This document shows, in pieces, positions 5,237-21,805 of a stretch of DNA of 64,000 bases. Positions within the stretch are counted from its first letter, which is position 1; every line of letters starts with the position of its first letter. The stretch spans positions 434,001 to 498,000 of the forward strand of contig JAKVNF010000002.1 of NCBI GenBank assembly GCA_022483465.1, written 5' to 3'. A program made the position numbers and the translations under genes. Source of the DNA: Lachnospiraceae bacterium. Its GTDB lineage: Bacteria > Bacillota > Clostridia > Lachnospirales > Lachnospiraceae. The notes under the pieces were generated by a model. The model was not told where the DNA came from and searched no databases. It was given only the letters and a program-made list of their open reading frames with translations.

Positions 5237-5316
5237 ATACTGGAATCAGAACGAGGCGGGACAGACAGGGCTTTTCCGCTTTGTTCTGCTCCAGGTCGGC
5301 AGCGGAAAATACCTAA

Positions 5317-5374
5317 GCGAAGTATGAGGTGAGGAGCTGGGCGTAGCCCAGGATGGACGAACCTCATACTTCGC
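5317..5374. repeat. Large two-stem palindrome in the gap left of the nested transposons
   Basis: GCGAAGTATGAGGT (5317-5330) is exactly inverted at 5361-5374. The 30-base interior folds again through CTGGG (5337-5341) and CCCAG (5347-5351). The result is a long stem, an asymmetric internal loop and a short apical stem. It lies in the 5239-5624 gap, which holds no gene. It could be a folded single-strand end or recombination site of the IS91/tyrosine-recombinase element, or a structured RNA. No T-run follows, so it is not a simple terminator. Confidence 0.5.
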
Positions 5375-5411
5375 GTTTGTGGTAAGACGCTGAGCGGGCG
5401 GCCCCCGCTTT

Positions 5412-5441
5412 CCGTCTCCGGGAGCGAGCTCCCGGAGACGG
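5412..5441. repeat. Perfect 13-bp hairpin
   Basis: CCGTCTCCGGGAG (5412-5424) pairs with CTCCCGGAGACGG (5429-5441) over a 4-base loop; a T5 run follows 9 bases later. It could terminate plus-strand transcription or mark the end of the neighbouring mobile element. The rest of 5442-5624 shows nothing recognisable except a weak hairpin with T-run at about 5581-5625. Confidence 0.5.
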
Positions 5442-5624
5442 TGAAACTCAGTTTTTCGTATGTAGATTGTATTCAAATGTAACATCGTAGATGCAATGCT
5501 GATGTTTCTAAAATCCTGGAAATCAACTGCTTAGAGGCATAGTATCTGCATCTTCGAATTAAAAATGAGTACAACAAAAAGGCCCCATGGTTAGGAGCCG
5601 ATAAAAGATATTCGGCTTTGCTTT

Positions 5625-6582
5625 TTATGCGCTGTTGGATTTAGCTTCAGGCCTTGGCTTGAAATCTACTTTCACCATATCAGCGCCACACCTTGGACAA
5701 ATATGATAATCATCCGAAAATAGCTCAAGGTATCTCGCTTTTACCCATGCCAGCAAAACGTGAGACAAACCTCTGCTTCTTTTGCTGTTTCTGAATACGG
5801 GCTACATTCTTCTTCCTTTGAGAATTACTCAGATACCCATAGTATCGGATCTTCTGGAAGCCCTTAGGTAGGATATGAAGAAGAAATCTGCGAATGAATT
5901 CCTGTAAGCGGACTTTGATAACTACCCATTTTCCACCCTGCTTATTGTCTTTGGCTTTGAACGTTACTGTTTCTCTGTCATAGCTGAGAATCCTGCCCTC
6001 ACTGATTGCGACACGATTAACATATCTGCCGAGATACTGGATGGCATTGCCCTTGCCGCATAGTGTCTCTTTGATATCAATGTCCCAGGATTTTTTATAC
6101 ATGCTGTCCTTGAAAGCCTGCCAGTCCTGAGGAGTTCTGATGCTGTCATCACCGGGCATGATCAGTTTCCCGGCATCATAAAGCTCTTGCAGGCCGGCCA
6201 TGAACTTACCTCTGAACTTTGATTTCAGGACATTTACAGGGAGACAGAAGTGTTTCTTTTTCCCTTTAACAAATCGCTTTGGCTTTCCCTTCAGCCCGCC
6301 TCCGGAAACAATGCAGTGGATATGCGGATGGAACATCATGTTGTTTCCCCATGTATGAAGCACCTGAATGACACCGGGTGTTGCACCGAGAAACTTTTTA
6401 TTCTGCATCAGTTCCACAAGTGTCTGTCCTGAAGCCTTATGCAGCAGATCATAGAGCAGACTCTTGTTGGCAAAGATCAGAGGATTCAGCTCACATGGAG
6501 CGGTAAAGACGACATGAAAGTATGAGCAATCCACAAGCTCAGACTGGCGTTCATCAACCCAGATTTCCTTGTTGACATACTG
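5625..6582 (-). pseudogene. IS91-type transposase, C-terminal three quarters
   Basis: This fragment carries the HUH relicase-type core of an IS91/IS801-family transposase: the conserved SYFHVVFTAPCELNPL stretch, LHTWGNNMMFHPHIHC with the HUH histidines, and YLGRYVNRVAIS with the catalytic tyrosine region. Its N-terminal zinc-binding part lies across the inserted transposon at 11633-11755 and 15941-16092. The frame in use stops at 5725 (GKSEIP). One base fewer in the AAAA run near 5740 would extend it to 5625 with a zinc-ribbon tail containing CPRCGADM. That tail suggests a real frameshift late in the gene. The gene cannot now be expressed as one protein. Confidence 0.85.
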
Positions 6583-6619
6583 TGTCATGCGGCACGTTGC
6601 CAGCGGCGCAAACGGCAGT

Positions 6620-6814
6620 TTAATTTCGGTGTTCTCTCCGTTGGGATTGTGCCAGACCGTAACCTGCGGCACACTCTGAGCAGAAATGCGGCATGATCCT
6701 GCCAGGTCTCTTACCAGTTCCGCGCCGGTGCCTGTTATTAAGGCGAGATACGGAAAAAGGCCGCAGAGAGATCCCCTCCTCACGGTCTTTTGATCTGTTC
6801 TTCTGCTTCTTCAT
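6620..6814 (-). CDS. Small basic protein at the transposon end
   Basis: This 64-residue ORF begins with ATG inside the ATGA overlap with the ATPase stop codon, so it is translationally coupled. It ends 37 bases before the transposon end. It is strongly basic (MKKQKNRSKDREEG start) and has one CSEC pair, but I recognise no family. Coupling and position support a real gene. The alternative is chance open frame inside the end region, since it overlaps the putative transposase-binding repeat. Confidence 0.4.
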   Translation of the reverse strand: MKKQKNRSKDREEGISLRPFSVSRLNNRHRRGTGKRPGRIMPHFCSECAAGYGLAQSQRREHRN

Positions 6815-7623
6815 CCGAGCTGCCGGTTATTTGCGGCGGCCATGATAACTTCAGCGTCGATGACCTTTTTATCCATCTGGGCGCCGATAGTCAGGGCATC
6901 CGTCATCAGCGTATCGATGACCCGGGGATTACCCTGCGACAGGGAATGGACTGACGCCATAGCAGCATCGTCAATAATGGAATCGGCTCCTCCGGCGACA
7001 TGGATCTTATGCCGCACATATGCCGGGATCTCATCTGCAGTGAGCCCCTTAAAGTCATAGTGAACAGTGATCCGCTGACGGATCGCTTCGTGGATGGGAA
7101 GAGAGAGCTTTATGTTCAGCTGGGATTCTCCCACAAGGATGAGTGTGAAGCAGTTCAGGGAATCGTATCTGAAGTTCATGATCATCTTCAGATCGTTCAG
7201 GATCGAGGTGGAGAGCTCCTGCGCTTCATCTATCGCAAGGATCAGCGGCTGCCTCTTCTCTTTGTACAGGTAATAGATCTGCTCTTGGATCGCCTTGAAC
7301 AACGCCGGTTTGCTGCCTTTCTGGCTGACGCCAAGGATGCCGCAGAACTCTTTATAGAAATCTGTGACGCCTACGGTGGACAGGCAGATGTAAGCCATGT
7401 GGTACAGGTTTGGGTTGAGTCCGGCGGCGAAGCAGCGCAGGACAAAGGTCTTGCCCATCCCGGGACGCGCGGTAAAAACGCCGATCCCACGCACGTCCTT
7501 GAGATAATTCAGGCGGCTAGTCATTTCTTTGAAATCCGAGGACTCGAAATGATCCCTTTCCTTCAGTGACTGCTTGTCGAACGGATTGCAGGTAAGCCCG
7601 TAGTACGCTGTAAAACTGCTCAT
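6811..7623 (-). CDS. ExeA/TniB-family transposition AAA+ ATPase
   Basis: This 270-residue AAA+ ATPase resembles ExeA/TniB/MuB-type partners of rve transposases. It starts MSSFTAYYGLTCNPFD, the typical ExeA N-terminus. Walker A is ARPGMGKTF near residue 53, Walker B is LILAIDEAQEL near 128, and a sensor region follows (FTLILVGESQL). The C-terminus has the AAA lid with LSQGNPRVIDTLM. It would select target DNA and activate the integrase. Its start overlaps the integrase stop by 4 bases, and its stop overlaps the next small ORF by 4 bases, so the transposon genes form one coupled operon. The gene looks intact, but its integrase partner is broken. Confidence 0.88.
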   Translation of the reverse strand: MSSFTAYYGLTCNPFDKQSLKERDHFESSDFKEMTSRLNYLKDVRGIGVFTARPGMGKTFVLRCFAAGLNPNLYHMAYICLSTVGVTDFYKEFCGILGVSQKGSKPALFKAIQEQIYYLYKEKRQPLILAIDEAQELSTSILNDLKMIMNFRYDSLNCFTLILVGESQLNIKLSLPIHEAIRQRITVHYDFKGLTADEIPAYVRHKIHVAGGADSIIDDAAMASVHSLSQGNPRVIDTLMTDALTIGAQMDKKVIDAEVIMAAANNRQLG

Positions 7624-8887
7624 GATGCATCTCCGATCTTCGCGTAGTCGATCGTGATGTTATCACGCTTCGTGTGGCAGTTCTCTACACGGTTGGTCTG
7701 ACGGATCGGGAAGCGCTTTTTATCGTAAAGGATGAAGGCTGTGCTCATGTCGCTGGGCTGGAAGCGGATCTCAACGCTCTGCCCGATGAACTGCATGGGC
7801 ACGTCGTAACTGACTTTATCGATGGAGACAGTGGCATCTTTCTTCACGCGTCGGTTGATCCGGTTGAGAAAACATTCATCCAGCCATTCCTGTGAGGCAG
7901 GAGCCTTGATCTGGTCCTTTGTCTTCAGGTACCGGTCCATGGGCGTACAGCCGATCCCGGAATGGAAGGAAGTGTTATAAGAACGCATATATTCCCTGAG
8001 CATGCCGTTGAACTGCGCCAGGGAGTGGATGGACTCCATATCCAGCTTGTACAGCCAGGTCTCCTTGAGTGTTAACCAGCTGCGCTCGATCTTCGCTTTG
8101 GAGGCGCCGTCGCGTACTCTTGTGTGGAGCAGTACAACGCCGAGGCTGCCGCAGATGAGGGAAAGCTGTTCATTGGCATAGGAACAGCCGTTATCGACGT
8201 AGAGCTTTGAAGGGATGCCGTAGGCTGCGATGGCGTCTTTGAATACTTTCTGGAAGTTGGCGGCATTGTCACTGTAGAACAGTTCGCCGCCGACGAGGAG
8301 CCTCGAATGGTCATCGATGATCATGATGGCATAGACGCGGCGGACCTGCCCGTCCTCGGTGATGTGCGGCAGGTAACAGGTATCAGCCTGCCACATACGC
8401 CCGAAAGCGTCCTCCTCGAACTGTTTGCGGTCCCGTACGTTGGGATTTCTGGCCGACTTGAGATCGTTACGTCTGATGAAGCGCTGGACAGAGCAGACAT
8501 TGACTTTTGAGGAGAGAAGACCGTTGCCAACAAGGTGGTGATAGATCTGTGTGGCGTTCAGCCTCGGAAACTTCTCCTTGACCTTGTAGATCTCCTCGAT
8601 GGCCGCATCAGAGAGCGCTCTGGCAGAACCTTTGTCAGAACGGGCCTGGGGCATCAGTGCATCATAACCACCACGTTTGTACATCGATGCCCACTTTTCA
8701 ACGGTCTTGTAGCTGTATGTCACAGCAGTTCCGTCTGGAAGCTTCAGCGGTTTTTCCGTGATCCGTTTGTAATACTCCGTGGCACTGGCATCAGAATAAA
8801 GCCCCTGGATTACAGGAGCGATCAGTGCGAAACGGAACTGGGCAACAGCAGTAGCTTTTGCGAGTTCATCATTAGCATAAATATTAT
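7620..8887 (-). pseudogene. Rve-type (DDE) integrase of the Mu/Tn7-like transposon, main part
   Basis: This holds the transposase catalytic subunit from codon 4 onward. An N-terminal helix-turn-helix region (TYSYKTVEKWASMYKRGG) precedes an rve domain with the three acidic residues in WQADTCYLPH, LYVDNGCSYANEQ and SKAKIERSWLTLKE. A C-terminal beta-barrel of the Mu-transposase type follows. The gene is cut by the ISL3 element: the open frame continues to 8887, and the true start (ATG AAT AAT ATT) lies at 10653-10642 across the insertion. Joined, the gene would encode 423 residues. A GTG at 8723 could give a truncated 367-residue product lacking the first 56 residues. Confidence 0.88.
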
Positions 8888-10641
8888 GGCCCTTTCACTT
8901 TTTTTGTGGGATGAGCCCTTCCTGACCGTCTCCGAGGTCCTCTGCCCCCGGTCCTCCACAGGTGCCCTCTGCTCTCCGTGTATCTGTACTCCCGGGCGGA
9001 CCGTGGGAGCATCGCCGAGGGGCCCACGGTCTCGGAACAGCGTTCTCCATCAGATCCGCTTGTACGGATTTCTGGATGCATCCATGATCTTTAGGAAAAA
9101 GTACTCATCATCTGGAAGGCCATAGGCTTTCCTGCGGATGACCTTGATGTGTGCGTTGATCCCCTCTATCTTCCCGGAGCTGATCGGACAGAGCCCGTAT
9201 CCCACAATGCCGTCAAAGTGGTTCTCAATGAGCCTGGCAAACCAGAGAAAGTGCTCATTTTTCGTGCCCCTGCACCAGTCGATGATATCTGTAAACTTCT
9301 CGATCATCGTCGCCTGATTGGCTGAGGCATATGCTTCCTGCATGGCCTGCTTGATCAGATCACAGGTGAACAGCAGCTTGTTCGAGTTGATGATGTCGTC
9401 GTATCGCCGCTCGAAATCGTCATGGGTATGCCTGTAATCGGTCGTACCGAAGATCGCAGATCCCTTGCGGCACACCTTGCCCTCACGGGCTTCCTGATCG
9501 TGTTTCTGCAGGGACTCCCTGCTGGCACAGAGTATCTTCCTTGACCCCTTCAGAACAGTAGCTTCCTCGACCAGGCCTTCCTTCTTCAGGCGGATCTGTT
9601 CCTCCTTCCGAACCTCGGCAATGACCTTCTCGTTGAAGTTCTTGACGATGTGGAAATGATCATAAACGATCTGGATCCAACCGCATTTTGCCTTGAAAGC
9701 CTCCTGGAAGTCGCTGTTCATATCCATGGCAACGGCCTCTACATGATGCATCCAGTCGTCACCCACCAGCTCCATGAATTCTTCTACAACGGCCTTTGTT
9801 TTGCCTGCTCGGATGAACAGCACCGCACCGGTTATCAGGTCTATGATGTGCGTCGCATATTTGTGTCCGTTATGCAGCTTGAACTCGTCAATGGCAAGAT
9901 ACCTTGCATAGGCGGCAGGCTTTTTGAGCTTGCCATTCTCATCCGCGTAAAGACTCTTCAGACGCTTAAGATCGATCTTCTTGATCGTATTGATGTTGAC
10001 GCCAGTAATGATTGCCGTGTCCGTAAGGGTAAATTCATCCATAGAAAGATAGCGAATGATCAGCTGCTCAAGCTCCTTTGTAATCATCGAATCATCTGCC
10101 TTGAACGCGACATCCGGTGTGATGGTCTTGCCACAGAGATTGCATCTCCACTGGTACTTGTCGCACTCAATGATGGTTTGGCATGCCTGAAAGGGAATGT
10201 GTTTGATCTTCGTGTGGTAGGTCTGATTCTTGTACATTCTGCGCCCGCAGCAAGAGCATACAGGATGGTCCAGCTGGTCCAATTTACCGCGCAGAATATA
10301 AGCCCTTTTGAAGGTATTCTCACTCAGTTTGCTCTTCCGCATGGAGTGGAAGGGCCTGACGTCTCGAATAGGAACCTCTTCAACGCTCTCCTGATGGAAC
10401 CCCGTCAGGTGGCTTGGGAACATCAGATAGTCATTTTGAGTCCGGGCAGCAAAAGACATTTGCCCATTCGCCTCGGTGTATGTATAATTCTGATTCATAA
10501 GAGGTTTCCTTTTTATCCCGTATTGCATATCTTGGTCGACGTGCAATCGAGATGATATCAGGAAATCTCTTTTTGTAAATAGAAGATATTCTCTATAGGC
10601 TGCCTTCTTTTAGTGCATCACACAAGAAAAATGAAAGACCC
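8888..10641. mobile_element. ISL3-family insertion sequence
   Basis: This is a complete 1754-bp element. Inverted ends are GGCCCTTTCACTTTTTTTG (from 8888) and, inverted from 10641, GGGTCTTTCATTTTTCTTG. The 8-bp target duplication AATATTAT flanks it exactly at 8880-8887 and 10642-10649, the duplication length expected of ISL3. It sits in codon 4 of the integrase gene of the surrounding transposon. Confidence 0.95.
9050..10498 (-). CDS. ISL3-family transposase
   Basis: This 482-residue DDE transposase has the ISL3 layout: an N-terminal zinc ribbon (CSCCGRRMY, then CNLCGKTI), a helix-turn-helix, and the DDE domain with LAIDEFKLHNGHKYATHI, VAMDMNSDFQEAF, YDHFHIVKNFN and SGKIEGINAHIKVIRRKAYG. I choose the internal ATG at 10498 rather than 10546 because AGGAAA stands seven bases upstream. 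The gene is intact and occupies most of its element, so this copy may be active. It carries no passenger gene. Confidence 0.93.
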   Translation of the reverse strand: MNQNYTYTEANGQMSFAARTQNDYLMFPSHLTGFHQESVEEVPIRDVRPFHSMRKSKLSENTFKRAYILRGKLDQLDHPVCSCCGRRMYKNQTYHTKIKHIPFQACQTIIECDKYQWRCNLCGKTITPDVAFKADDSMITKELEQLIIRYLSMDEFTLTDTAIITGVNINTIKKIDLKRLKSLYADENGKLKKPAAYARYLAIDEFKLHNGHKYATHIIDLITGAVLFIRAGKTKAVVEEFMELVGDDWMHHVEAVAMDMNSDFQEAFKAKCGWIQIVYDHFHIVKNFNEKVIAEVRKEEQIRLKKEGLVEEATVLKGSRKILCASRESLQKHDQEAREGKVCRKGSAIFGTTDYRHTHDDFERRYDDIINSNKLLFTCDLIKQAMQEAYASANQATMIEKFTDIIDWCRGTKNEHFLWFARLIENHFDGIVGYGLCPISSGKIEGINAHIKVIRRKAYGLPDDEYFFLKIMDASRNPYKRI

Positions 10642-10653
10642 AATATTATTCAT
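10642..10653 (-). pseudogene. First four codons of the interrupted integrase
   Basis: The minus strand reads ATG AAT AAT ATT from 10653, preceded by a strong GGAGG ribosome binding site eight or nine bases upstream. The frame joins exactly to TAT GCT AAT at 8879 once the ISL3 element and one target copy are removed. This shows where the integrase gene began. Confidence 0.9.
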
Positions 10654-10758
10654 AGTACTCTTACCTCCTGATGGCTGTATCCTAAATCAGGCAGGAGGCC
10701 GGAACTATTCACACCTTATGGAATAAGAGCCATCAGCGGCGATAGAGGGTGTGGCCTG

Positions 10759-11334
10759 TCAGGAGTATGCCGGATTCCTGTGCAGCTGCAGGAATGAGGT
10801 AGCTGCCCTGAGAAAGAATGCGTGCAGGAAGGAAGAGAGATGCGGCTGATGATCGATGGATCTCAGAAAGTATGAGGGATCACTGTCCCGGCTGCGCAGG
10901 AGCCCCAGCCAGAGCTCTCGGTGTGCCAGAAAGACACGCTTCCACCGGTACAGGGTCGGCGCGGCGATGCAGAAGTCCCGACAGATCTGTGCTACGGTGC
11001 GGCTGTGGCGGAAATAGGCCTTCAGGACCGTGAGGATGAACCGCAGGGTGTACTGGGAGTAGGGAATGAGTGTGTCTTTCAGGAGAGCATGGGTATGCCC
11101 ACAGGTACATCTGACTCTGGGGACAGCGACCTGGAGTTCGTATATCTTTCCCCGATACACATCCACAACGTAGCGCTTGTAGCTGCCGTGGGGCTGATAC
11201 ATGCCTCTGGCGCGGCAGGCCGGGCAGTTGACAAGCGAAAGGTCTGGGAGTTCATCTCCGGGGTATGTGAACAGAAGATCATCTGGCTCTGAGATCCTCT
11301 GGGTATTGCAAAGTAACGAAATTCTCCTTATCAT
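10759..11334 (-). CDS. DUF6431-like zinc-binding protein of the transposon
   Basis: This 191-residue protein is the first gene of the Mu/Tn7-like transposon. It has a zinc-ribbon-like part (NCPACRARGMYQPHGSYKRYV near residue 35, then RVRCTCGHTHALL near 73), followed by helices resembling a helix-turn-helix (VAQICRDFCIAAPTLYRWK near 122). I recognise the pattern of DUF6431 proteins, which often lie beside transposase genes in Clostridia; their role is not established. Target-site recognition or transposase regulation is a guess. The start at 11334 has no good ribosome binding site; AAGGAG lies just inside the frame, so the start is uncertain. The ISL3 element separates it from the integrase by about 1.7 kb. 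Confidence 0.65.
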   Translation of the reverse strand: MIRRISLLCNTQRISEPDDLLFTYPGDELPDLSLVNCPACRARGMYQPHGSYKRYVVDVYRGKIYELQVAVPRVRCTCGHTHALLKDTLIPYSQYTLRFILTVLKAYFRHSRTVAQICRDFCIAAPTLYRWKRVFLAHRELWLGLLRSRDSDPSYFLRSIDHQPHLSSFLHAFFLRAATSFLQLHRNPAYS

Positions 11335-11420
11335 AATGTTAGCTTTACGTATATGTGGGACGGTGGTGTGTTCACTGGCAAGGTGAGAGCCCGGCGGTTC
11401 GCATTGCGTACATAGTGCTT

Positions 11421-11464
11421 AAGGAGAAGACCGGCTGTCTGGGCGTGGATCTTCTCCTTTTTCT
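11421..11464 (+). terminator. Terminator-like hairpin in the transposon right end
   Basis: AAGGAGAAGA (11421-11430) pairs with TCTTCTCCTT (11450-11459), followed by a T-run on the plus strand. It would block plus-strand read-through into the transposon. The rest of 11335-11632 holds the right end with its repeat motif but no gene. Confidence 0.6.
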
Positions 11465-11632
11465 TATCCTTCTTTCGGGAGACTATCATAATCGGATTGT
11501 TAGAATAGTCAACAGTATACGAAAAAAGCATGCCGCATAAGACAGCACGCTAGGATCATCATTTTTATGAACTTCAGAAATTAATCTGCCGCTATAGTGC
11601 GGTAGGTGGGGAGTTTAATTTGCTGCATGACA

Positions 11633-11755
11633 ATACTGATCCATTGGGCAGTTACGGTTACCACATGAGTTGTAGTGAATTTCGGTATAACCACAGCGGG
11701 GGCATTCTACTTTGTTATAGCCCATTGCTTCCGTCCGACACTTGGAAATACAATC
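11633..11755 (-). pseudogene. IS91-type transposase, middle fragment
   Basis: The minus strand encodes the zinc-binding knuckle of the IS91-type transposase: KVECPRCGYTEIHYNSCG and NRNCPMDQY. It continues in frame across the ATACTG duplication into VNKEIWVDERQSEL at 6576. On its other side it joins in frame, across the IS66 insertion, to EQYKAADCI at 15941. The last cysteine expected in the CPxC knuckle is aspartate. Confidence 0.85.
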
Positions 11756-11852
11756 GTAAGCGTAACAACGGACGTACCATGACCCGGATCAACCTCTTCT
11801 GTAGAATGAGGCTAGGAAACTACTAGCTGCGTTCTACAGAGGAGGCTTTTTT

Positions 11853-12371
11853 ATGGACAAGAGACAGCAGATGGTTCGTGAGGAGAAGCTTCGCTATTGG
11901 AGGCCGATCATCAATGCGTACGAGAACAGAGAAACGAAGCTGATGTCGATTGCACAATGGTGCAGGGAGCATGAGATCAACGCCTCACTCTTCTACTACT
12001 GGAAAAACGTGATCAGGGAGACGGACGCCAGTAACAGGAAGGCATCCTCTGGTTCAGTGCCAGAGACAGAGAACTTCGTAGACATCACCGACATCGTAAA
12101 CGGACAGGCACGCCCTGATGTCAATACAATAGGCTCGGAACCGGGTACTGCTGATGACTCGGGTTCCCGCAGCCGGTCGAACCACTCTGATCTTCCGCGG
12201 ATCACCGGTACACCGGAAGAAGGAAATGCCGGATCTGTTCCAGGCAGGCCGGGAGGGCCTGCCGTGTCTCCGGAAGTTATCCTGGAGACACGGTCCTGTC
12301 GGCTCTATCTCTACTCTTCTGTCCGGCGCGAGACCCTCTCCATGCTTAAGGAGGCTTTTCATGTTTGTTGA
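11853..12371 (+). CDS. tnpA: IS66 TnpA-like accessory protein
   Basis: This 172-residue protein is the first gene of the IS66 element. Its N-terminal 60 residues form the TnpA helix-turn-helix (LMSIAQWCREHEINASLFYYWK), and the C-terminal part resembles the usual low-complexity link and final strand (CRLYLY...ETLSMLKEAF). It is required with TnpB for IS66 transposition in characterised elements. It starts at ATG 11853 after GAGGAGG and overlaps tnpB by 11 bases, suggesting coupled translation. Confidence 0.85.
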   Translation: MDKRQQMVREEKLRYWRPIINAYENRETKLMSIAQWCREHEINASLFYYWKNVIRETDASNRKASSGSVPETENFVDITDIVNGQARPDVNTIGSEPGTADDSGSRSRSNHSDLPRITGTPEEGNAGSVPGRPGGPAVSPEVILETRSCRLYLYSSVRRETLSMLKEAFHVC

Positions 12372-12750
12372 CGGCATCGGCTTCAGGAAGATCATTCTCT
12401 GCACGAAGAGGGTGGATATGCGCCGCGGCGTTGATGGACTCTCCGCTTATGTCATGCTGAACTATCACCTGGATCCAACGGACCGTGGAGTTCTCTATCT
12501 TTTTCGTGGCAGATCTGCCAGAACGATCAAGGGGATCTGCTTCGAGGGAATCGGCACTGTGCTCTATACGCTTCGCCTTGCGCCGGGAAACTCATTCCAG
12601 TATCCCAGGAATGCGGACGAAGCCAGATCTCTTTCTCCGGAGCAGTACCGTCAGCTCATGAGCGGAATCGCACTTGACGGTACCATCCGCGAAGTATACC
12701 CGCACATCGACATGCCTGATCAGGTGGCCGCAGAATCCCAGAGATCCTGA
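12361..12750 (+). CDS. tnpB: IS66 TnpB (Orf2) accessory protein
   Basis: This 129-residue protein carries the Orf2 signature: a short N-terminus, KRVDMRRGVDGLSAYV near residue 15, and GVLYLFRGRSARTIKGICFEG near 40, in place of the usual LFLFCNRRRDRIKILYWD. The start is the ATG inside the tnpA tail, preceded by AAGGAGG. Its function in IS66 is essential but biochemically unclear. Confidence 0.85.
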   Translation: MFVDGIGFRKIILCTKRVDMRRGVDGLSAYVMLNYHLDPTDRGVLYLFRGRSARTIKGICFEGIGTVLYTLRLAPGNSFQYPRNADEARSLSPEQYRQLMSGIALDGTIREVYPHIDMPDQVAAESQRS

Positions 12751-12810
12751 AAACACGCGGTTTTTGAACTTTCAGGCTACTTCAGTGGGGAGTATAAATA
12801 TTCAGATATC

Positions 12811-12856
12811 TATACCCTTATTTTCGGTTGACAAGAGGGTATAGATATGTTACTAT
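12811..12856 (+). promoter_or_regulatory. Promoter with overlapping inverted repeat inside the IS66 element
   Basis: TTGACA (12828-12833) and TACTAT (12851-12856) are 17 bases apart, a good sigma-70-type promoter. TATACCCT (12811-12818) and its inverse AGGGTATA (12836-12843) flank and enter the promoter, so a repressor could bind there. It would drive the accessory gene and tnpC independently of tnpAB. Confidence 0.65.
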
Positions 12857-12895
12857 ACTCCTGAGAACTGATAAGCAGCTCTCAGGAGGTCTGAC

Positions 12896-13273
12896 ATGGG
12901 TACCATTCATCTGAGACAGGGGGATACGGTATACGTTTATTCTTCACACAGCTATTGGGACAAGGAGGCTAAACAGCACAAGACAGACCGGAAGCTGATC
13001 GGGAAGCTTGATCCCGTTACAGGGGAGGTTGTGCCCACCAGGAAGTACGTTCGAAAGCAGGCATCGGCCTCCGACGCACCAGCAGAGCAGGCAAACTCTG
13101 TTCGGGCTGAAGGTTCGACGAAAACTTTGATTTCCAGAATAACAGAGCTGGAGGAGGCAAATGCATCTCTGCGGAATGAGAATACACAGCTGAGGAAGGC
13201 TCTCCGCGCCTATCAGGATGCCGTTCAGAAGGCCAGCGCAAGCCTTGCTTCCGTAGACAAAGAGGCCCGGTGA
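12896..13273 (+). CDS. IS66-associated small protein with coiled coil
   Basis: This 125-residue protein has two parts. Residues 1-55 form a module with GDTVYVYSSHSYWDKEAKQ and RKLIGKLDPVTGEVVPTRK. Residues 75-120 form a coiled coil (ITELEEANASLRNENTQLRKAL). The N-terminal module also appears in the accessory protein of the IS4-like element at 21401-21805, and a related form starts both IS1634-like transposases in this window. Its role is unknown; DNA-end or transposase contact is plausible. It has its own promoter and overlaps tnpC by TGATG. Confidence 0.7.
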   Translation: MGTIHLRQGDTVYVYSSHSYWDKEAKQHKTDRKLIGKLDPVTGEVVPTRKYVRKQASASDAPAEQANSVRAEGSTKTLISRITELEEANASLRNENTQLRKALRAYQDAVQKASASLASVDKEAR

Positions 13274-15501
13274 TGGAAACCGAGATCCCTGTCCAGAGAC
13301 TTCATAAGTACAACCTCCTGTACCAGTGTGGCGCTTTCAGTCCGAGCGACATCTCGAACATCTTTAGTGAGGTTATCGTGGATGACATCGTCAAGACGAA
13401 CCGCATTGCAGCGCTGATAAAGGCAGCTGAAAAAGCAGCTGAAGATTATAAAGCGCTGCAAAAGGAAAATGAGGAACTCAAACAGAAGGAGCAGAATAAG
13501 GACGAGAACAACAAACTCGGACGTAGGAGAGCCTTTGGGGAAAAGGACGAGCAGCTCTCTGGGAAAGAACTCGAAACCGGGATTCCACAAGGCGGCAGCG
13601 AGGATGTGGAGACAGATCCGCTCACCGAAGAGTCTGACGCTGATGGAGAGCAGGCCAAAGACACGACAGGGACAGAAGAACCTGCAGAGCCAGCCAATGC
13701 AGACGAAAATGGGAAAGACAGTGACGGAAAAACTCAGGATGAGAATCCGTCCAGGAAAGGCGGAGCTGGCGAAAAAGGCAGGAAACCCAGGCGGAGCAGC
13801 CGTCCCCCGAGAAAACCGATACCCGATGAATCAAAGGAAAAACAGAAGCGCAAGCCGGGCATCTGGGAGCGTGATACGCAGAATCTCCCGCACAGAATCA
13901 GCTATGATGTGGATGATCTGACTCCGGAAATGATCGAAAAAGCAAAGTCTTTATCTAAGCTGGGATTCGAAGCAAGCGAAAAACTCAGTATAGAGGAGGC
14001 TCATGTCGTCGTGCTGACAATCATGAAACCAATCATCGCATACTCAGAGGATGTCAGCGACGAAGAAAAATCCGATTCTGACAGTCATGAGGTGAATCGT
14101 ACGCTATACCGGCCCTACAGCGAGGGATATATCATGCCGGGATCCCGGGCAACCCCGGAGATCGTCGCCTTCATGTACTACATGCTGACCAGCATGAGCA
14201 TCCCGTACAAGCGCATCGCTGCTCTGATCTGTCACATGGGCTATCCCATGAAAACACAGAAAACGGTTTACTGGTGCAATACCTGTGCCGCAAGATATCT
14301 GCTTCCCGTCTTCGATTATCTCGTCAGCTTCATCATAACAGGCAAGTACATTCAGATGGATGAAACCACCTGGAGATCTATCTATGATGCTGAGAAGCCG
14401 GGAGAAAAGTCCTATATCTGGCTGCTGATTACAAGTGAGCTGCGGGAAGGCCCCAAGGCTGCCGCATATTTCTTCAATCCCTCCAGGGCTGAGTCATTTC
14501 TGGATGGACTGTTTGCAGACTTTCTTCCGGATAAGGACGCGGATCGTTCGGATACCGCAGGCCAGACAACTCCGCCGGAACAGGAAACGGAGCCCGATCC
14601 TACGACAGTGACAGGAAATGCATCTGTCGTATGCAAGAACGACAAGTATGCTGCATATCCGGAACTGGAGCGCAAGTCTGAAGGAAAGATCGTGGTCTCA
14701 TTCTGCCTTGCGCATCTGAGAAGGCCGTTCTTTCTTGCCTGGCTTATTGTGAAGATGGCCTCAAAAGACCTCATGAAAACGGAGGAGGGCAGAAAACAGC
14801 TGGCACAGACCTGGGAATGGAAAATCCTGCGCGAGATCAGCCTTGCCGAGAGCGAGGATACGAAGCTCAAGCGCCTGTCCGGAGAGGAGCGGGTTGCTGG
14901 AAGAATCAAAAACGTAAAGCCGCACCTGGATCTGGCCTGGCAGTACGTCTGTGAGTATGAGGAGGCCTATCAGGCCTCGCTGCATGGTACTTCCTCTGAT
15001 CCATCAAAACGAGTAACGATGACCGCGACGATGCGCAAGGCGATGAACTACTTTGAGGATTGCAAGAAAGGCGGTCACATCGACAGCTTCCTCTACGATT
15101 CTAACGTACCTGCGGACAACACTTACTGCGAAAGAAACATCCGTAGGATTGCTTTGCAAAGAAACAGCAGTCTCTTTTCGTATTCAGATGAAGGTGCCAC
15201 CGACCGCATGATTGCGAACTCCATCGCAACAACAGCGGAATTGAATGATGCCGATCCGGAGTACTACTTCCAGTATCTCCTCATCGAGATACCCAAGCAT
15301 CAGAGGCGGGGAGACAACCCAGATGAATATCTTCCAAAGATGATGTGCTGGTCTGAAGAATACAGGGCGTACGAAGCGAAGCAGCGAGAAGCCACACAGG
15401 CCGGGAAAGGTATCAGTTTTCAATCTGAGACAGAGCCCATCCTGGTAAATGGCCGGTGGATGCGAGATGGAAAGGTGGTCGGCCCATACCCGGCAGCATG
15501 A
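13273..15501 (+). CDS. tnpC: IS66-family transposase (TnpC)
   Basis: This 742-residue transposase has an N-terminal coiled coil (residues 55-80), a long charged linker, and the IS66 catalytic domain from about residue 260. Signatures are TLYRPYSEGYIMPGS, the aspartates in YIQMDETTW and VCKNDKYAAYP, and the terminal glutamate in NTYCERNIRRIALQRN. The linker makes it longer than the usual 450-550 residues. The central domain also contains an extra acidic insertion (about 420-450). I choose ATG 13273, which overlaps the previous stop, over the adjacent GTG. The gene appears intact. Confidence 0.93.
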   Translation: METEIPVQRLHKYNLLYQCGAFSPSDISNIFSEVIVDDIVKTNRIAALIKAAEKAAEDYKALQKENEELKQKEQNKDENNKLGRRRAFGEKDEQLSGKELETGIPQGGSEDVETDPLTEESDADGEQAKDTTGTEEPAEPANADENGKDSDGKTQDENPSRKGGAGEKGRKPRRSSRPPRKPIPDESKEKQKRKPGIWERDTQNLPHRISYDVDDLTPEMIEKAKSLSKLGFEASEKLSIEEAHVVVLTIMKPIIAYSEDVSDEEKSDSDSHEVNRTLYRPYSEGYIMPGSRATPEIVAFMYYMLTSMSIPYKRIAALICHMGYPMKTQKTVYWCNTCAARYLLPVFDYLVSFIITGKYIQMDETTWRSIYDAEKPGEKSYIWLLITSELREGPKAAAYFFNPSRAESFLDGLFADFLPDKDADRSDTAGQTTPPEQETEPDPTTVTGNASVVCKNDKYAAYPELERKSEGKIVVSFCLAHLRRPFFLAWLIVKMASKDLMKTEEGRKQLAQTWEWKILREISLAESEDTKLKRLSGEERVAGRIKNVKPHLDLAWQYVCEYEEAYQASLHGTSSDPSKRVTMTATMRKAMNYFEDCKKGGHIDSFLYDSNVPADNTYCERNIRRIALQRNSSLFSYSDEGATDRMIANSIATTAELNDADPEYYFQYLLIEIPKHQRRGDNPDEYLPKMMCWSEEYRAYEAKQREATQAGKGISFQSETEPILVNGRWMRDGKVVGPYPAA

Positions 15502-15600
15502 TAACCTCCTGACAAACAGAACAACCCGAGTAGCCGACGTCTGCCGAACAGGCAGGCATCGGCCACTTGCAGTCGCATAAGTGAAACTGCAGAATTGACC

Positions 15601-15650
15601 GTCCGGCATGGTATTGTTCCCACCTGAGGAATCGCCATGCCGGACTTTCT
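15601..15650 (+). terminator. Terminator-like hairpin after IS66 tnpC
   Basis: GTCCGGCATGG (15601-15611) pairs perfectly with CCATGCCGGAC (15635-15645), followed by TTTCTTG. The 15502-15940 tail of the IS66 element contains no other recognisable feature before the inverted end. Confidence 0.65.
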
Positions 15651-15940
15651 TGTGTCTGGATCCATCGCTTCAGGGTGACAGGAGACTGGGACCCGGATGC
15701 CCAACCTATCCAGGTACACGGAGACGCCCCATCACAACCGACGTACCTGCAGTCCAGATCCGAACCTGCGCAGTTCATTCCCAGGAGATGCGTAGGCCGA
15801 AAGCAATACATCTGCAAAGAGATTCACCTCCACTGTCAACCGCGAATCTCTGAAGTATTTGCGGTTTCAACTGGAACCCTCCCCCTTAATGATAACGCCT
15901 CACGCAGGTTTCGTCAGCGTACGCTGGTTGTTATGCTTAC

Positions 15941-16092
15941 ATACAATCGGCAGCTTTGTACTGTTCGGAAGTGATGTGTCCTGCATAGTCTTTCTGATAC
16001 TGCGGCCATCCGAGCTGAAAGATCTTCTGAATGGGGTGAGTCTTCTTATTGGCAGCCTTTGCCTGCTCTCGTGATACGATCTTTATACTCAT
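15941..16092 (-). pseudogene. IS91-type transposase, N-terminal fragment
   Basis: The start of the IS91-type transposase is ATG 16092, preceded by GAGGT. It encodes MSIKIVSREQAKAANKKTH and runs to EQYKAADC, where the IS66 element cuts it. It begins 10 bases after the stop of the tyrosine recombinase, so the two genes formed an operon. Three segments together give a 372-residue transposase. Confidence 0.85.
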
Positions 16093-16102
16093 GATCGGTA
16101 CC

Positions 16103-16541
16103 TCAAAGAGTATCGATAGGGCTTGTGATTCCATTGAAATCCTGATGTGCCAGAGTAATGTAAATCAGGGTTGAAGTAATACTGTTATGCCCCATGAGCT
16201 CCTTCAGACGGAAAATATCTACGCCAGAGCGATAGCATTCCGTTCCAAAGGCGTGCCGCAGACTGTGGCAGGTCAGCTTATCCAGTCCAATTGAATCTGC
16301 GATCTTACGGACATAGGTCTGGACACTGGTTGTAGAGATCGGCATCGAAGGGATCATCGGAGACGGAAACAGATACTCGGTCTTATCCTCTATCTCCGGA
16401 CTGCCAAGAGATTTCCAGTAGTCAGTAAGAGCCTGAACGGTCGCTTTCCCAAGAATTGCATAACGATCAGATCTGTTCTTGGATACCGAAACATAAATAC
16501 GATGCTCTTTCACATGGATGTCACAGTATCTGAGATTACAG
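16103..16541 (-). pseudogene. Tyrosine recombinase, C-terminal half
   Basis: This part carries the catalytic C-terminus: CHSLRHAFGTECYRSG with the HxxR box, LKELMGHNSITSTLIYI with the second histidine and the nucleophile tyrosine. It begins NLRYCDIHVKEHRIYV and joins across the IS1634-like insertion to the N-terminal half at 18435. It belongs to the phage-integrase/XerC family. As it stands neither half can work. Confidence 0.9.
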
Positions 16542-18434
16542 CCCTAAATCGCAAGTTTTTATACTAGCAGCTTGATCTCAGTTGCCTGGTTGATTGCCTC
16601 GTCCTCTGTGAGGCCAACCTTGGAGACCAGTTCCTTCTGAATCCTGCTCATCGCATAGGACGGATACCAACTGCCATCAGACTGCAGTTCCACCTTATAC
16701 TTGTTTAGCTCCATCATCTCGAAGGCGATGGTTGCACTGGTCTTATCGTGAAGCACTTCCCTCAAATCCCATGTCAGCGTGGCAAAGAGAATGCTTGCGA
16801 TAAAGGCCGTGAACATCTTCCCCCGATATGTCTCGATGGAGTGGGTGTATGTGACCGACAGATCAAAGTGCCGCTTGATGGATTCGAAGACGTGCTCCAC
16901 AACATCACGTCGCCGGATAATCCGGATTGCCTCGGATGCCGTCATTTCAGTATCACTGACGAGAACAAAGAATCCGGCACGATCGACCATCGTCTGGATC
17001 ATTTCAGTGTCCTCCAGGATGGTGAAGTTCTTCCCTGTTTCTGGATCGGCCTTTTTAACGACAATGATCCCTTTTGGAGCGTAGTCCTGCGCCATCTTTT
17101 CCGTGTAGCGTTTTCTCTTGGATGCCTCATTGAAGTAATAGGAAATAGTGCTCCTTATGGACTGTTCCTCATCAAATTCCCGGGAGTGATCAAAGAAGAG
17201 GTAGGCAAAGCAAGCCTTTCCAGCCACTGTTACCGGGTACCGCTTTCCAAATACGTTGGGCTCCGTCGTCAGGTATTTCTGCTTTCCGCGGATCTCCGCT
17301 CCATGATCTTTGATGAGCGCATCTACCCAGTTGACATTGTCTGGACAGAGGACACCATATTCCAGATCCTTTACTTTCCGGAGGGCTTTGATGATGTCCT
17401 CTGAAAAGTATCCTCGATCGAACATTGCGAACAGCTTTTGATATCCTGCATCCACGATCTTTTTCAATGAGAAGGACGTCTGCACCTTATCCAGGAGAGA
17501 ACCGTCGTAGTGCTCATACCACATAGGAATGCCGGTCTCTTCATCCACAAACATAGCCGTGTTAATGATCTTCAGTCCAAAATCGGTCTTGGATTTTCCG
17601 AACTCTGCAAGATCTTCATTCTCGGACTGGGTGTTTTGATTGGTGGAGTCAAAGGCAATGACCCGATTGCTGTCCTTTCGGGGAAATCGTTTCTCGTATT
17701 CTTCCCGGAAAATCCGGAAGAACACATTGATATTTCCCTCATCTGACCCGATCAGACGGTATAGGCCGCTGACTTCACTGTCGTCGATGACACGATCCAG
17801 ACCGCAGTAGTGATCAAAACACCAACCGGGAAACAGCTGGGCAGTTGAACTTTCCGCAACAATGGAGTAGACGGCCAATGCAATGATTTTCCGCTCATAT
17901 TCAGGGTAGACCCGTGTCAGAGCGGTATAGCATCCGGATTGCTCTGCGGCCGCCTTTAGAACCAGGTACGGTCCAAAGGAGAGCTTCGAATCCGTTTTGC
18001 CGGCAGCTTTACGGGCCTTTGTGCCGAAGGTGTCCTTCAGTCGGTTCACCTCAGCATCGATGGGACCGAAGAACTGCTCATAGTTCTTGTTTGGATGCAT
18101 ATGAGAGCGATCGCCATCGACAATTTTTCCGATTGAGATCCGTTTGTCGACAGGACGCCGCTTCTCAGAGTCCCAATGATACTCTGTGGCGAGCAAGACA
18201 TAACCCGTGGTGAGGATATGGATAGTTCCCTTGTCGCTTGATTTCGGAGTTTTAACGAGTACATCTGTATTGCTGTACATGGCCGCCCTCTAAATTGCTA
18301 GTAAAATATCTATCAGTTATTATACTAGCATTTTACAGAGGTTACAATGTCGTTTTATGCCCTATTTCCAACGTCTATTGACATTTTAATGGAGTCATCC
18401 CGGGACGCCTAGTAAAAAACTTTGCGATTTTGGG
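16542..18434. mobile_element. IS1634-like insertion sequence, copy A
   Basis: This is a complete 1893-bp element. The ends are CCCTAAATCGCAAG (from 16542) and, inverted from 18434, CCCAAAATCGCAAAG, continuing as similar T-rich repeats to TACTAG. The 6-bp target duplication TTACAG lies at 16536-16541 and 18435-18440. It splits the tyrosine recombinase right after the catalytic arginine. Confidence 0.94.
16559..18280 (-). CDS. IS1634-family DDE transposase
   Basis: This 573-residue transposase of the IS4 superfamily shows RVIAFDSTNQNTQS (first D), KLFAMFDRGYFSEDII (second D) and RRDVVEHVFESIKRHFDL (E, in a Y-REK-like context). The N-terminal 70 residues hold a separate module (YVLLATEYHWDSEKRRPVDKR, then ISIGKIVDGD) that resembles accessory proteins of the other elements here. 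Its stop codon lies in the inverted end. It appears intact. Confidence 0.92.
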   Translation of the reverse strand: MYSNTDVLVKTPKSSDKGTIHILTTGYVLLATEYHWDSEKRRPVDKRISIGKIVDGDRSHMHPNKNYEQFFGPIDAEVNRLKDTFGTKARKAAGKTDSKLSFGPYLVLKAAAEQSGCYTALTRVYPEYERKIIALAVYSIVAESSTAQLFPGWCFDHYCGLDRVIDDSEVSGLYRLIGSDEGNINVFFRIFREEYEKRFPRKDSNRVIAFDSTNQNTQSENEDLAEFGKSKTDFGLKIINTAMFVDEETGIPMWYEHYDGSLLDKVQTSFSLKKIVDAGYQKLFAMFDRGYFSEDIIKALRKVKDLEYGVLCPDNVNWVDALIKDHGAEIRGKQKYLTTEPNVFGKRYPVTVAGKACFAYLFFDHSREFDEEQSIRSTISYYFNEASKRKRYTEKMAQDYAPKGIIVVKKADPETGKNFTILEDTEMIQTMVDRAGFFVLVSDTEMTASEAIRIIRRRDVVEHVFESIKRHFDLSVTYTHSIETYRGKMFTAFIASILFATLTWDLREVLHDKTSATIAFEMMELNKYKVELQSDGSWYPSYAMSRIQKELVSKVGLTEDEAINQATEIKLLV

Positions 18435-18862
18435 TTACAGGTCTCCTGACAGCGCAGACCAGCAGAATACATGATAATCAGCATGGTTTTGTATCTGATG
18501 TTATCTGCTGCATTGAGCAAAGTGCGGAACTGTTCTTTTGTAGGAACAAACGGGATATATTTATCGAACTTGCGCTTGGGAACCTGAGTTGGATCCCAAT
18601 GCTTATGGAGAACATAGATTATGAAGTTTTCCAGATGTGCAATGTCGCTGTTGATGGTACGGTCGCTCAGATTTTTTGTAGCTTTAAGCCGGTCAAAAAA
18701 GGCGCGTATTTCGCCCCATTCAAAACTGGCAGGATCCTTATGAAGCTGAGTATCGAAGTAGTCCAGAAACTGGGTAATTGTAGATGCATACTGATCACGA
18801 GTGTGTGGTGACAGGTTCCTGCAATCAAGCATCTTTTTGAATTGAGCAAGGTAATCGTCCAT
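18435..18862 (-). pseudogene. Tyrosine recombinase, N-terminal half
   Basis: The gene starts at ATG 18862 after an AGGAGG ribosome binding site (MDDYLAQFKKML). It encodes the SAM-like core-binding domain (LSPHTRDQYASTITQFLDYF) and the start of the catalytic domain up to YSAGLRCQET, which includes the first catalytic arginine. Joined to 16541-16103 it gives 286 residues in one frame. The longer open frame upstream to 19021 lacks a ribosome binding site and is not needed. Confidence 0.9.
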
Positions 18863-19136
18863 GGTAAAGCCTCCTGCATGAGTAAATTTGCTGGCAGAAA
18901 GCAAACCCGACAGGAGGATATGCCATTGTTGGTAATGATCGAGTGTGGTAATATAAACCCCGGCAGTTCTTCTGCGCTGGGTTTGTTTTGTGTCGTAACT
19001 TAACTTTACCACAGCCATCAAGGGCTGCTTTTTTTGATGCAGCGAAAATGTAAATCTTTAGCCGAAGACTTGAGGTAGCAACGCCGCCGCGAAGCGGCTT
19101 AGTACAATCTCAGGCAAAGACAGAGAGGGGGGAAGC

Positions 19137-19595
19137 ATGCAGTACAGACACTTTGACAACCAGGCGCGGGAGTATGTGATGGATCGCATTGATCTGCCCA
19201 CATCCTGGACCAACTACATCGGAACGGGCGACATGATGGGCGTATTCAACCAGATGGCCGGGGGCTATGTCATCTACCGGTCATCGGAGTATCACCGCAT
19301 CACGCGGTTTCGCGGCAACGGCGTGCCGATGGACACCCCCGGCCTTTACATTTACGTCCGGGACAATGCGGACGGCGACTATTGGAGCCTCAGCTGGCAG
19401 CCGGTTGGAAAGCCGAAGGAGTATTACTCCTGCTGCCACGGCCTCTCCTATATCCGGTACCTGTGCAGCTACTCCGGCATACGCGCGCAGCAGAAACTAT
19501 CCGTCGCGATGGATGATCCCGTGGAGATCATTGATGTCACGCTGACCAATACCTCCCAACGGCCCCGTGACCTCAGCGTCTTTTCCTACATGGAA
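19137..19595 (+). pseudogene. Cellobiose-phosphorylase-like (GH94) N-terminal remnant
   Basis: About 153 residues remain of a glycoside phosphorylase of family GH94, normally 800 residues or more. The start (MQYRHFDNQAREYVM after GGGGGGAA) and stretches such as PTSWTNYIGTGDMMG and ITRFRGNGVPMDTPG match the family N-terminal beta-sandwich. At about 19595 the sequence changes into the IscB-like tail. No catalytic domain is left. Intact homologs split cellobiose or related beta-glucosides with phosphate. Confidence 0.8.
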
Positions 19596-19596
19596 T

Positions 19597-19801
19597 TGTG
19601 CAGGCTGTCAAAGACTTGGATTCCAGTCTGACTGTGCATACCACGTATGGAGCATATACGAAGCTGTCACGTCGGGATCACTCCCTTGCCAAGTCGCATG
19701 CAAATGATGCCTATTGTATGGGAGCGTTTCAGCCGGGGCACAGAGCAGCGGAACGGCTTCTGAAAAAGAAACGCCGCAATCATCGTGTGTTGTCCAAATT
19801 C
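19597..19801 (+). pseudogene. IscB-type nuclease, C-terminal remnant, first part
   Basis: The frame starting near 19597 reads VQAVKDLDSSLTVHTTYG, then AYTKLSRRDHSLAKSHANDA and KKKRRNHRVLSKF. This matches my recollection of the RuvC-III region and following part of RRXRR/HNH nucleases of the IscB family, in which KxHxxDA carries the last RuvC aspartate. The N-terminal RuvC and HNH parts are absent: the sequence abuts the GH94 remnant. It continues across the IS4-like insertion at 21975. Confidence 0.68.
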
Positions 19802-19907: not shown

Positions 19908-21350
19908 CTATGAGACCAGGTCTTCATCCGAATAGTGGGCCTGCAGTGCAGAAATATACCGGGTTAGGAAGGACTCCGGCCTCGAGAGCAAACTGCCCAA
20001 AAATGTGTGGCGCAGATAGTACAACAACGTAGCTTCTGAGATGTACCCATCTCTCTGTGTCCTCACATACCGGAAGTCCTGTATCTTCCTGACGTCCTGG
20101 ATCCGATACGTCATCAGCTGAACAAGCCCCATGGCGATCTCTGCAAACAGAACGAAGCGCTCTATCGCGTCGACGGTATTCAGGATCTTCTTCTGCGCTG
20201 CCGGATCCTTTACATGGCTGAGACGATCAGGCTCATCTTTCTTCTTGAAGTGGTTGAGCTTCGCAATGCTTCTGGTCCAGAAGTGGTACCCGAAGCCTTC
20301 AAAGCGTTGCTTGAATTCGCGGAAGAATTCTTCAATCGAAAATCTGTATGCGTACAGTGTAATGATGAGATTGGGTGCATACTTTTCGGTGCATACAAGA
20401 ATTCCCCGCTTGGGGCCTCCATCATCTTCGTACTCTACGAGGACAAAGCGGAGCTCCTGGTAAAGCTTTGTTCCCCAGAGAAGATCCAGATACATATGGC
20501 GCACGGTCCGTTTTCTCCCGTAAAGGTACATGACCTCGGTCTCGAAATGACTTTTCTTCGAATCAAACAGGTCGTTCAGTTTGACGGGTGTTCCCTTCTT
20601 ACGGGGGCGGCCGCGGGTTTTCCGGAGTGTCGGGATTGGCTGGCGGTAAGCGATGACATTCCTCTTTGCTTTGGTGATGATGGCAATCCGATTGCCTCCA
20701 TCTGACGAGTTCAGCTCATTCATCGCGCTGATGGCAGGTACAGTCAGGAAGTAACGGTCCAGGATCAGAAAGCTTCTTCCCAGTGTCCTGGCGGCATCAT
20801 AAGCGTTACGGATGATCTGAACCACATGGCTTTCTGCACTGATGCCGCTGTTCTCCCAGCCTGCAGCATCTCGAAGTCCGTCCTGAATGCTCATGTGGAG
20901 TGGCAGGCACAGGTGATGCTGTTTGGTGCCAATGAGGACGCCGATGGCGCCAAACATGTGGCCGAAGATGTACTCTCCCTTGGAGGAATCTTCCGACTCC
21001 TGATGAAGCTTCTTTACTCCCGGCATGTATCTTGCTTCCTTGGACTGCTTGACTCCATCACCTATGAGAATCGTACGGCCGTCTGCCAGGAGAAAGTTTG
21101 CCGAGTCACGGACAAAACGATACCACGCCAGCCTCACCATCTGCGTCTGATAGGCTGATGAATGGAAAAAGTGGATGAGCGTGTCGTAGCATCCATGGTT
21201 TAGTGACAAAGCTCGGATGGTTGAAGTTACTCCGAGGTGATCCTCCCTCAGGATAAACATGAGGATGACGAGGACGAACCAGCGGAAAGCCCTCTCCTTG
21301 AAGAAGCAGGAGCGGAACGACTGCAGTGACTTTTCCAGATATTCGGCCAT
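19908..21350 (-). CDS. DDE transposase of the IS4-like element
   Basis: This 480-residue transposase shows LIGDGVKQSKEARYMPG (first D), SFLILDRYFLTVPA (second D) and YAYRFSIEEFFREFKQRF (E with the Y-REK-like spacing). The long DDE domain with an extra beta-rich insert resembles IS4/IS701-type enzymes. I call it IS4-like on the basis of the catalytic pattern and the 10-bp duplication; the subgroup needs a database search. It is intact. Confidence 0.88.
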   Translation of the reverse strand: MAEYLEKSLQSFRSCFFKERAFRWFVLVILMFILREDHLGVTSTIRALSLNHGCYDTLIHFFHSSAYQTQMVRLAWYRFVRDSANFLLADGRTILIGDGVKQSKEARYMPGVKKLHQESEDSSKGEYIFGHMFGAIGVLIGTKQHHLCLPLHMSIQDGLRDAAGWENSGISAESHVVQIIRNAYDAARTLGRSFLILDRYFLTVPAISAMNELNSSDGGNRIAIITKAKRNVIAYRQPIPTLRKTRGRPRKKGTPVKLNDLFDSKKSHFETEVMYLYGRKRTVRHMYLDLLWGTKLYQELRFVLVEYEDDGGPKRGILVCTEKYAPNLIITLYAYRFSIEEFFREFKQRFEGFGYHFWTRSIAKLNHFKKKDEPDRLSHVKDPAAQKKILNTVDAIERFVLFAEIAMGLVQLMTYRIQDVRKIQDFRYVRTQRDGYISEATLLYYLRHTFLGSLLSRPESFLTRYISALQAHYSDEDLVS

Positions 21351-21400: not shown

Positions 21401-21805
21401 TCAATGGTACTTTCTGAAAAAGGACTCCAGATCAGCCTTGAACTTCTCAACTTCTGCACGGTATGCGTCTGCCTGACTTCGAGCCTTTGCCAGTTCCGCC
21501 TGTGTTTCAAGAAGCTGACGTCGGCATTCCTCATATTGATAGCGGAGATCATCAGAGTTTTGTGAACCTGATCCAGAGGCCTTTGGTGCTGATGAAGCAG
21601 TGGTAACTGCAACAGTAGTGCTGTCTGGCTGGACTTTGCGCTTTCTGCCTCTTCCGGAGGTAGGAATGATTTCGCCTGTATCCGGGTCGAGTTTGCCAAT
21701 CAGTTTACGCTTCGAGCGAGGCTGTTTGATGTCCTTACGCCAATAGCTTACATTGTCATAAACATACGTTGTTCCATTTTTGGTTTTTTTGTAAATATAG
21801 CCCAC
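21401..21805 (-). CDS. Accessory protein of the IS4-like element
   Basis: This 134-residue protein starts, I think, at GTG 21805 after GGAGGT, giving VGYIYKKTKNGTTYVYDNVS. The module continues with YWRKDIKQ and RKLIGKLDPDTGEIIPT, followed by a Ser/Thr-rich linker and a coiled coil (YQYEECRRQLLETQAELAKA). It is similar in layout to the IS66-associated protein at 12896-13273. It precedes the transposase gene by about 50 bases, in the same direction. The role is unknown. Confidence 0.7.
   Translation of the reverse strand: MGYIYKKTKNGTTYVYDNVSYWRKDIKQPRSKRKLIGKLDPDTGEIIPTSGRGRKRKVQPDSTTVAVTTASSAPKASGSGSQNSDDLRYQYEECRRQLLETQAELAKARSQADAYRAEVEKFKADLESFFRKYH

Follow-up and report, generated by a model that had tools for sequence, protein, structure and literature searches.

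The window analysed here, a stretch of 64,000 nucleotides (C2:434001-498000) in a 4.30-Mb genome attributed to Lachnospiraceae and assembled in 4 contigs and 99.8% complete, carries a nest of four transposons inside a two-gene mobile element that pairs an IS91-type (Y2) transposase with an upstream tyrosine recombinase. In all probability, this nest was produced by separate transpositions into one copy of an IS91-type element that has spread to eight places in the genome. The nest is genuine, recent and made up of known kinds of transposon; it falls within ordinary transposon biology, though the documentation is unusually good, and reveals no new mechanism. The boundaries of the inserts, their duplications, the empty sites in paralogous copies and an order of two levels were all observed directly.

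Exact target duplications flank each of the four inserts (Table 1), and both ends of every insert look alike by eye in inverted orientation. With the ends fixed, 100,000 draws of random positions in the window gave chance matches of at least 6 bases at a rate of 0.046% and of at least 8 bases at 0.005%; the lengths of the duplications are what we take to be usual for the respective families. All four perfect duplications claimed by the first-pass annotation of this DNA lie where it had placed them, with exact insert bounds. Its description of four stacked transposons holds as regards the reality of the inserts but not their arrangement, for the depth of the nest is two: only the ISL3 element within the Mu-like transposon within the host element is stacked, and the IS66, IS1634-type and Mu-like inserts are siblings, entering the Y2 gene at about codon 48 (IS66) and about codon 87 (Mu-like) and the recombinase gene at about codon 140 (IS1634). 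Likewise, the nest is there, but the host element is wider than that annotation had it, extending from 5308 to 19108.

Eight near-identical copies of the host element were found in the genome, one of which (L017) is uninterrupted. Empty Mu-like, IS66 and IS1634 sites, each holding the duplicated bases once only, are present in all seven host copies outside the window, and the ISL3 site is empty in all five other copies of the Mu-like transposon. The empty-site check suggested for related strains could thus be run within the same genome, where it came out in favour of the insertions at three primary sites and at the ISL3 site, supporting both their independence and the relative order put forward earlier, namely that the ISL3 element arrived after or together with the Mu-like transposon.

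On the basis of these observations, we propose that an IS91-type element with two genes, for a tyrosine recombinase and for a Y2/HUH transposase, reached eight places in the genome, and that its window copy would then have been struck by three separate transpositions, of the Mu-like and IS66 elements into the Y2 gene and of the IS1634-type element into the recombinase gene. Each of these elements most likely relied on its own transposase, and the target duplication that it left has the length usual for its family; the ISL3 element would have entered the Mu-like transposon at a time when, most likely, the Mu-like family had already multiplied. The inserts may have built up because the host element serves no function under selection.

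Table 1. Coordinates in the window of the host element, its pieces, the four inserts and their target duplications
Feature	Coordinates	Strand	Support or length
Host element, IS91-type (Y2) with upstream tyrosine recombinase	5308..19108	-	Boundaries common to genomic copies
Host piece 1: N-terminal part of recombinase (ATG at 18862) and 5' end	18435..19108	-	Pfam Phage_int_SAM_4 1.6e-11
Host piece 2: Y2 start (16092) and C-terminal half of recombinase (to 16103)	15941..16541	-	Pfam Phage_integrase 7.9e-22
Host piece 3: Y2 codons ~48-87, between Mu-like and IS66 inserts	11633..11755	-	100% match to host copies
Host piece 4: most of Y2 gene, 3' end with terminal hairpin	5308..6582	-	Pfam Y2_Tnp 3.5e-54
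Mu/Tn552-like transposon: DDE transposase, AAA ATPase, DUF6431 protein	6583..11632	-	TGTCATGC ends, ATACTG
ISL3-family element, 1754 bp, transposase of 498 residues	8888..10641	-	8-bp duplication AATATTAT
IS66-type element, 4185 bp, TnpB and TnpC	11756..15940	+	8-bp duplication ATACAATC
IS1634-family element, 1893 bp, transposase of 573 residues	16542..18434	-	6-bp duplication TTACAG
Duplication of Mu-like insert (ATACTG)	6577-6582 / 11633-11638		6 bp
Duplication of ISL3 element (AATATTAT)	8880-8887 / 10642-10649		8 bp
Duplication of IS66 element (ATACAATC)	11748-11755 / 15941-15948		8 bp
Duplication of IS1634-type element (TTACAG)	16536-16541 / 18435-18440		6 bp

The host element and its relatives

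Without its inserts, the host element measures about 2.65 kb. The recombinase of 286 residues that the first-pass annotation had rejoined from the window is matched in size by that of the naturally uninterrupted copy L017 (286 residues from the ATG used, 339 from an upstream TTG). The 372 residues given for the IS91-type transposase are indeed the size of the window product, but this product is truncated: the Y2 protein of L017 has 406 residues (420 from an earlier ATG), and a 2-base deletion near 5730, found in none of the seven paralogs, shortens it in the window, where the stop of the full-length gene would fall at 5625, in piece 4. The reading frames are therefore free of error at the junctions, as had been claimed, but not elsewhere, and the deletion leaves the intactness of the host element at the time of insertion unsupported.

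Membership of the IS91 family is indicated by 401.8 bits to the NCBIfam IS91 model (cut-off 125), together with the Pfam Y2_Tnp match of piece 4, and the Pfam zinc-finger model reached 21.9 against a cut-off of 26.3 on the window piece, in which most of the finger region is missing. The Y2 translation contains HPHIHC and YLGRY, which we take to be the HUH and Y2 motifs, and a hairpin lies at the 3' end (fold z -5.7 in L017, with 0 of 200 shuffles as good), as is presumably a mark of the IS91 family at its rolling-circle end; at the 5' end the fold was not significant (z -0.3). An inverted repeat was also seen by eye near the 3' end in some relatives. Elements of the IS91 family typically use a fixed short target and do not duplicate it. 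At the boundaries of the host element, AATAC stands at the 3' end in all eight copies and TTGTA at the 5' end in six of the seven copies keeping that end, and as no pre-insertion site was found for these copies, target and element bases are inseparable there. The seventh 5' end, that of L018 (C1:1479000-1490000), does not carry TTGTA. In the recombinase, R137, K162, H233, R236, H259 and Y268 are invariant across all 11 aligned sequences and presumably represent the catalytic R-K-H-R-H/W-Y residues of a tyrosine recombinase.

The G+C content of the host element is 45.6% (versus 55.5% for the window), and a DNA search of 61 other genomes of the same genus gave no match in 56 and short weak matches only in 5; because of this low G+C and the lack of any long match in these genomes, the element is probably foreign. 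Y2 relatives with an E-value no higher than 1e-20 turned up in 33 of the 298 other family genomes sampled, the best relatives being about 50% identical, and the host lineage itself was seen only in its own genome. The recombinase lies directly upstream at 13 of the 18 loci with a Y2 of at least about 39% identity, the five misses comprising three loci cut by a contig end and two partial Y2 genes without recombinase (L049 and L050), and was not seen at any of the 11 loci with a distant Y2 (under 34%), so that the pair, as judged from gene neighbourhood, is characteristic of one branch of the family's IS91-type elements. A scan of a collection of named genomes with the recombinase alone returned no relatives (the own genome may be excluded there). 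With the 11-sequence alignment, the same collection yielded at least 583 candidates, of which the best 80 were kept; at 10 of these 80 loci the fetched stretch held an IS91-type Y2 gene, in records of Dorea, Acidobacteria, Synechococcus, Desulfopila, Endozoicomonas, Croceicoccus, Sphingomonas, Devosia and Roseivivax.

The inserted elements and their families

The Mu-like transposon is 3288 bp long without the ISL3 element and its extra duplication copy, and its ends (TGTCATGC... / ...GCATGACA) are of the TG...CA type. Assignment to the Tn552/Mu type follows from Pfam rve (1.4e-12), Mu-transpos_C (8.4e-08) and AAA_22 (1.3e-19); for the 367-residue window piece of the DDE protein no NCBIfam cut-off was reached, the best score being IS481 with 173 of 224. 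The ISL3 insert parts the first codons of the DDE gene from the remainder. Six copies of this transposon are present in the genome, three of them uninterrupted, and one of the latter (L063) encodes a DDE protein of 423 residues, exactly the size that had been reconstructed for the window's integrase.

The ISL3 element is assigned by Pfam DDE_Tnp_ISL3 (7.6e-46) and an NCBIfam score of 222.7 (cut-off 180), and a duplication of at least 8 bp was found at all 18 complete copies when the ends were left free by 2 bases. The IS66 element is assigned by its TnpB (NCBIfam 65.9, cut-off 50) and by Pfam TnpC (9.6e-37), TnpC remaining under its NCBIfam cut-off (146.6 against 180); with the same freedom of the ends, 12 of 13 copies show a duplication of at least 8 bp (chance 0.04%, for ISL3 as well). 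A small extra open reading frame (ORF) in the IS66 element (12896-13273) resembles by eye an ORF at 21401-21847, which adjoins an IS701-like gene and is perhaps a remnant of another IS66 variant. For the IS1634 element (NCBIfam 169.1, cut-off 100), 7 of 9 copies have a duplication of at least 6 bp, again with ends free by 2, and the two copies without one (L178 and L202) are themselves interrupted near one end. At L201 (C4:764720-769711), two IS1634-type elements stand in tandem, six bases apart and in the same orientation.

Insertions across the genome

The eight host copies have received 12 direct insertions by ten element types, affecting seven of the eight (three each in the window copy and L020, two in L022, one each in L018, L019, L021 and L023, none in L017; the altered or lost 5' ends of L018 and L022 were left out of the count). 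Ten of these 12 insertions are flanked by perfect duplications of 6 bp or longer. The types include a miniature inverted-repeat transposable element (MITE)-like element of 310 bp and an element of 1214 bp whose window copy is of the IS1595 type.

The same tally gave 7 insertions in 43.9 kb for ISL3 (25 copies), 4 in 20.8 kb for IS1634 (11 copies), 5 in 19.7 kb for the Mu-like family (6 copies) and none in 54.4 kb for IS66 (13 copies). The host density of 12 in 21.2 kb, or 0.57 per kb, thus compares with 0.12 per kb for these four families pooled (16 in 138.8 kb), an excess with a binomial p of 1.1e-4, or of 0.005 without IS66 (16 in 84.4 kb), insertions being treated as independent and age not corrected for. 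The tallies were made by hand on small counts; IS1214 in a Mu-like copy and ISL3 close to the end of an IS1634 copy, both in doubt at first, were upheld on checking, and the ISL3 halves on different contigs (L185 and L188) were counted as one insertion. Copy numbers may be low, since only 40 of 76 ISL3 and 40 of 45 IS66 candidates were scored.

Within the ISL3 elements, the same 8 bases at positions 1601-1608 have been targeted repeatedly: the MITE-like element entered there in either orientation (L182 and L184), and so did the 1214-bp IS1595-type element, the ISL3 halves beside which are now found on separate contigs, C3 and C1 (L185 and L188). A simple reciprocal exchange at IS1214 copies was considered for these halves and rejected, as the outer flanks do not match. 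The ends of the 310-bp MITE-like element (L022 4685-4994) closely resemble those of the 1214-bp IS1595-family element (window 60335-61548), which may mobilise it. At C4:152496-152754 and eight similar places, one of them just outside host copy L021, there are short pieces 78-86% like both ISL3 ends, probably a MITE from an ISL3 relative. Next to the nest, an ORF at 19137-19631, by eye the start of a sugar phosphorylase although without an NCBIfam match, stops abruptly near an IS701-like transposase (19908-21350; 116.8 bits, under the cut-off of 170).

Age and order of the insertions

That the insertions are recent, as had been suggested earlier, is borne out by only 5 substitutions in 21.0 kb among the host copies and by the window IS66 copy, which is identical to five others. 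The host copies further differ by two 2-base deletions (in the window copy and L021), and an additional indel listed for the window copy is an alignment effect at the duplication. The Mu-like copies show 4 substitutions in 18.9 kb, and the ISL3 copies are more diverse (185 substitutions in 43.9 kb). The IS66 copies fall mainly into two groups about 1.4% apart, with 6 of 13 identical, including that of the window, and five in the second group. Judged by their internal diversity, the ISL3 and IS66 families are not young as a whole. None of the eight host copies is flanked on both sides by one of the 11 surveyed element types, for which reason the host family would have settled before the inserts came. 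IS66 was probably the last to move, as judged by its position within host and Mu-like copies, with no insert found in its own 13 copies.

Discussion

Several points weigh against the account of separate transpositions into a spreading IS91-type element, or limit it. The order is recorded at two levels only, with none among the Mu-like, IS66 and IS1634 inserts, and the record rests on one strain. One IS66 copy (L198) has no duplication, one insertion in L021 has a duplication of 4 bp only, and a 1573-bp element in L020 has no perfect duplication. Moreover, the 2-base deletion in the window Y2 gene may precede or follow the inserts, or may be an assembly error. That the nest as a whole is an artefact of assembling repeated sequence is highly improbable: all of its parts are indeed multicopy, many of the copies nearly identical, but the assembly is nearly complete in few contigs, the duplications are exact on all four window inserts, and each direct insert in the host copies occupies a site of its own. 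We would also give little credence to a Mu-like transposon that already carried the ISL3 element upon entering the host element, which would reduce the events on the window copy from four to three. The nesting permits this, and the uninterrupted Mu-like copies could have provided transposase in trans; the insert, though, breaks the Mu-like transposase gene close to the beginning, and no other Mu-like copy bears it.

The excess of insertions in the host element could reflect either its greater age or an attraction of transposons to AT-rich foreign DNA. It is conceivable, albeit rather doubtful, that such sequence drew transposons beyond what age and lack of selection account for; the density excess and low G+C described above speak for it, as do the ISL3 duplications, which look A+T-rich by eye. 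Nevertheless, age alone could yield an equal excess, the counts are small and were made by hand, and 10 of the 13 IS66 copies and 16 of the 18 complete ISL3 copies carried no flag of lying inside a surveyed element, even though one of these 16 (at L178) does sit in an IS1634 copy. The stronger notion of a landing pad, which would have drawn in transposons several times as often as did other mobile DNA of the genome and spared the surrounding genes, appears unlikely.

Separate transpositions into one host copy thus remain our preferred explanation, and the locus offers an internally controlled record of a transposon burst, with eight near-identical copies, 12 direct insertions and the empty sites within the same genome. 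It also permits a tentative relative dating, in which the host element would precede the inserts, the ISL3, IS1634 and Mu-like elements were both hit and spreading, and IS66 was probably the most recently active. What seems worth keeping is the use of paralogous empty sites as an internal control and the insertion excess in one foreign AT-rich element, a system allowing a direct test of whether such DNA attracts transposons.

Comparison with known systems

The transposase families and duplication lengths of the four inserts agree with those of ISL3, IS66, IS1634 and Tn552/Mu-type elements, save that the Mu-like DDE protein of the window stays under every NCBIfam cut-off and the IS66 TnpC, although matched by Pfam, under its own. 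Both nested insertion sequence (IS) elements and the pairing of IS91 with XerD genes have been published before, going by the parts of the sources considered here. The pairing is known from a published survey, whose pertinent part reports IS91-XerD couples in 15 phyla (PMC9208149). The host element shares this two-gene pairing, which recurs in other family genomes and distant phyla, and differs as a lineage seen only in its own genome among the family genomes sampled; a literature search, thin on subscription papers, found no study on the use of a tyrosine recombinase by an IS91 element. Transient IS expansions with near-neutral dynamics are described in passages of PMC4072520, where copy numbers are modelled and nesting order does not figure in those passages, and the many near-identical copies of several families observed here fit such a recent expansion. 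Nested IS elements have earlier been called Russian dolls (PMC3852290, in the portion consulted); the phenomenon is the same, and there nested elements were separated and reconstructed as a step of the method, whereas here seven paralogous copies supply the empty sites within one genome.

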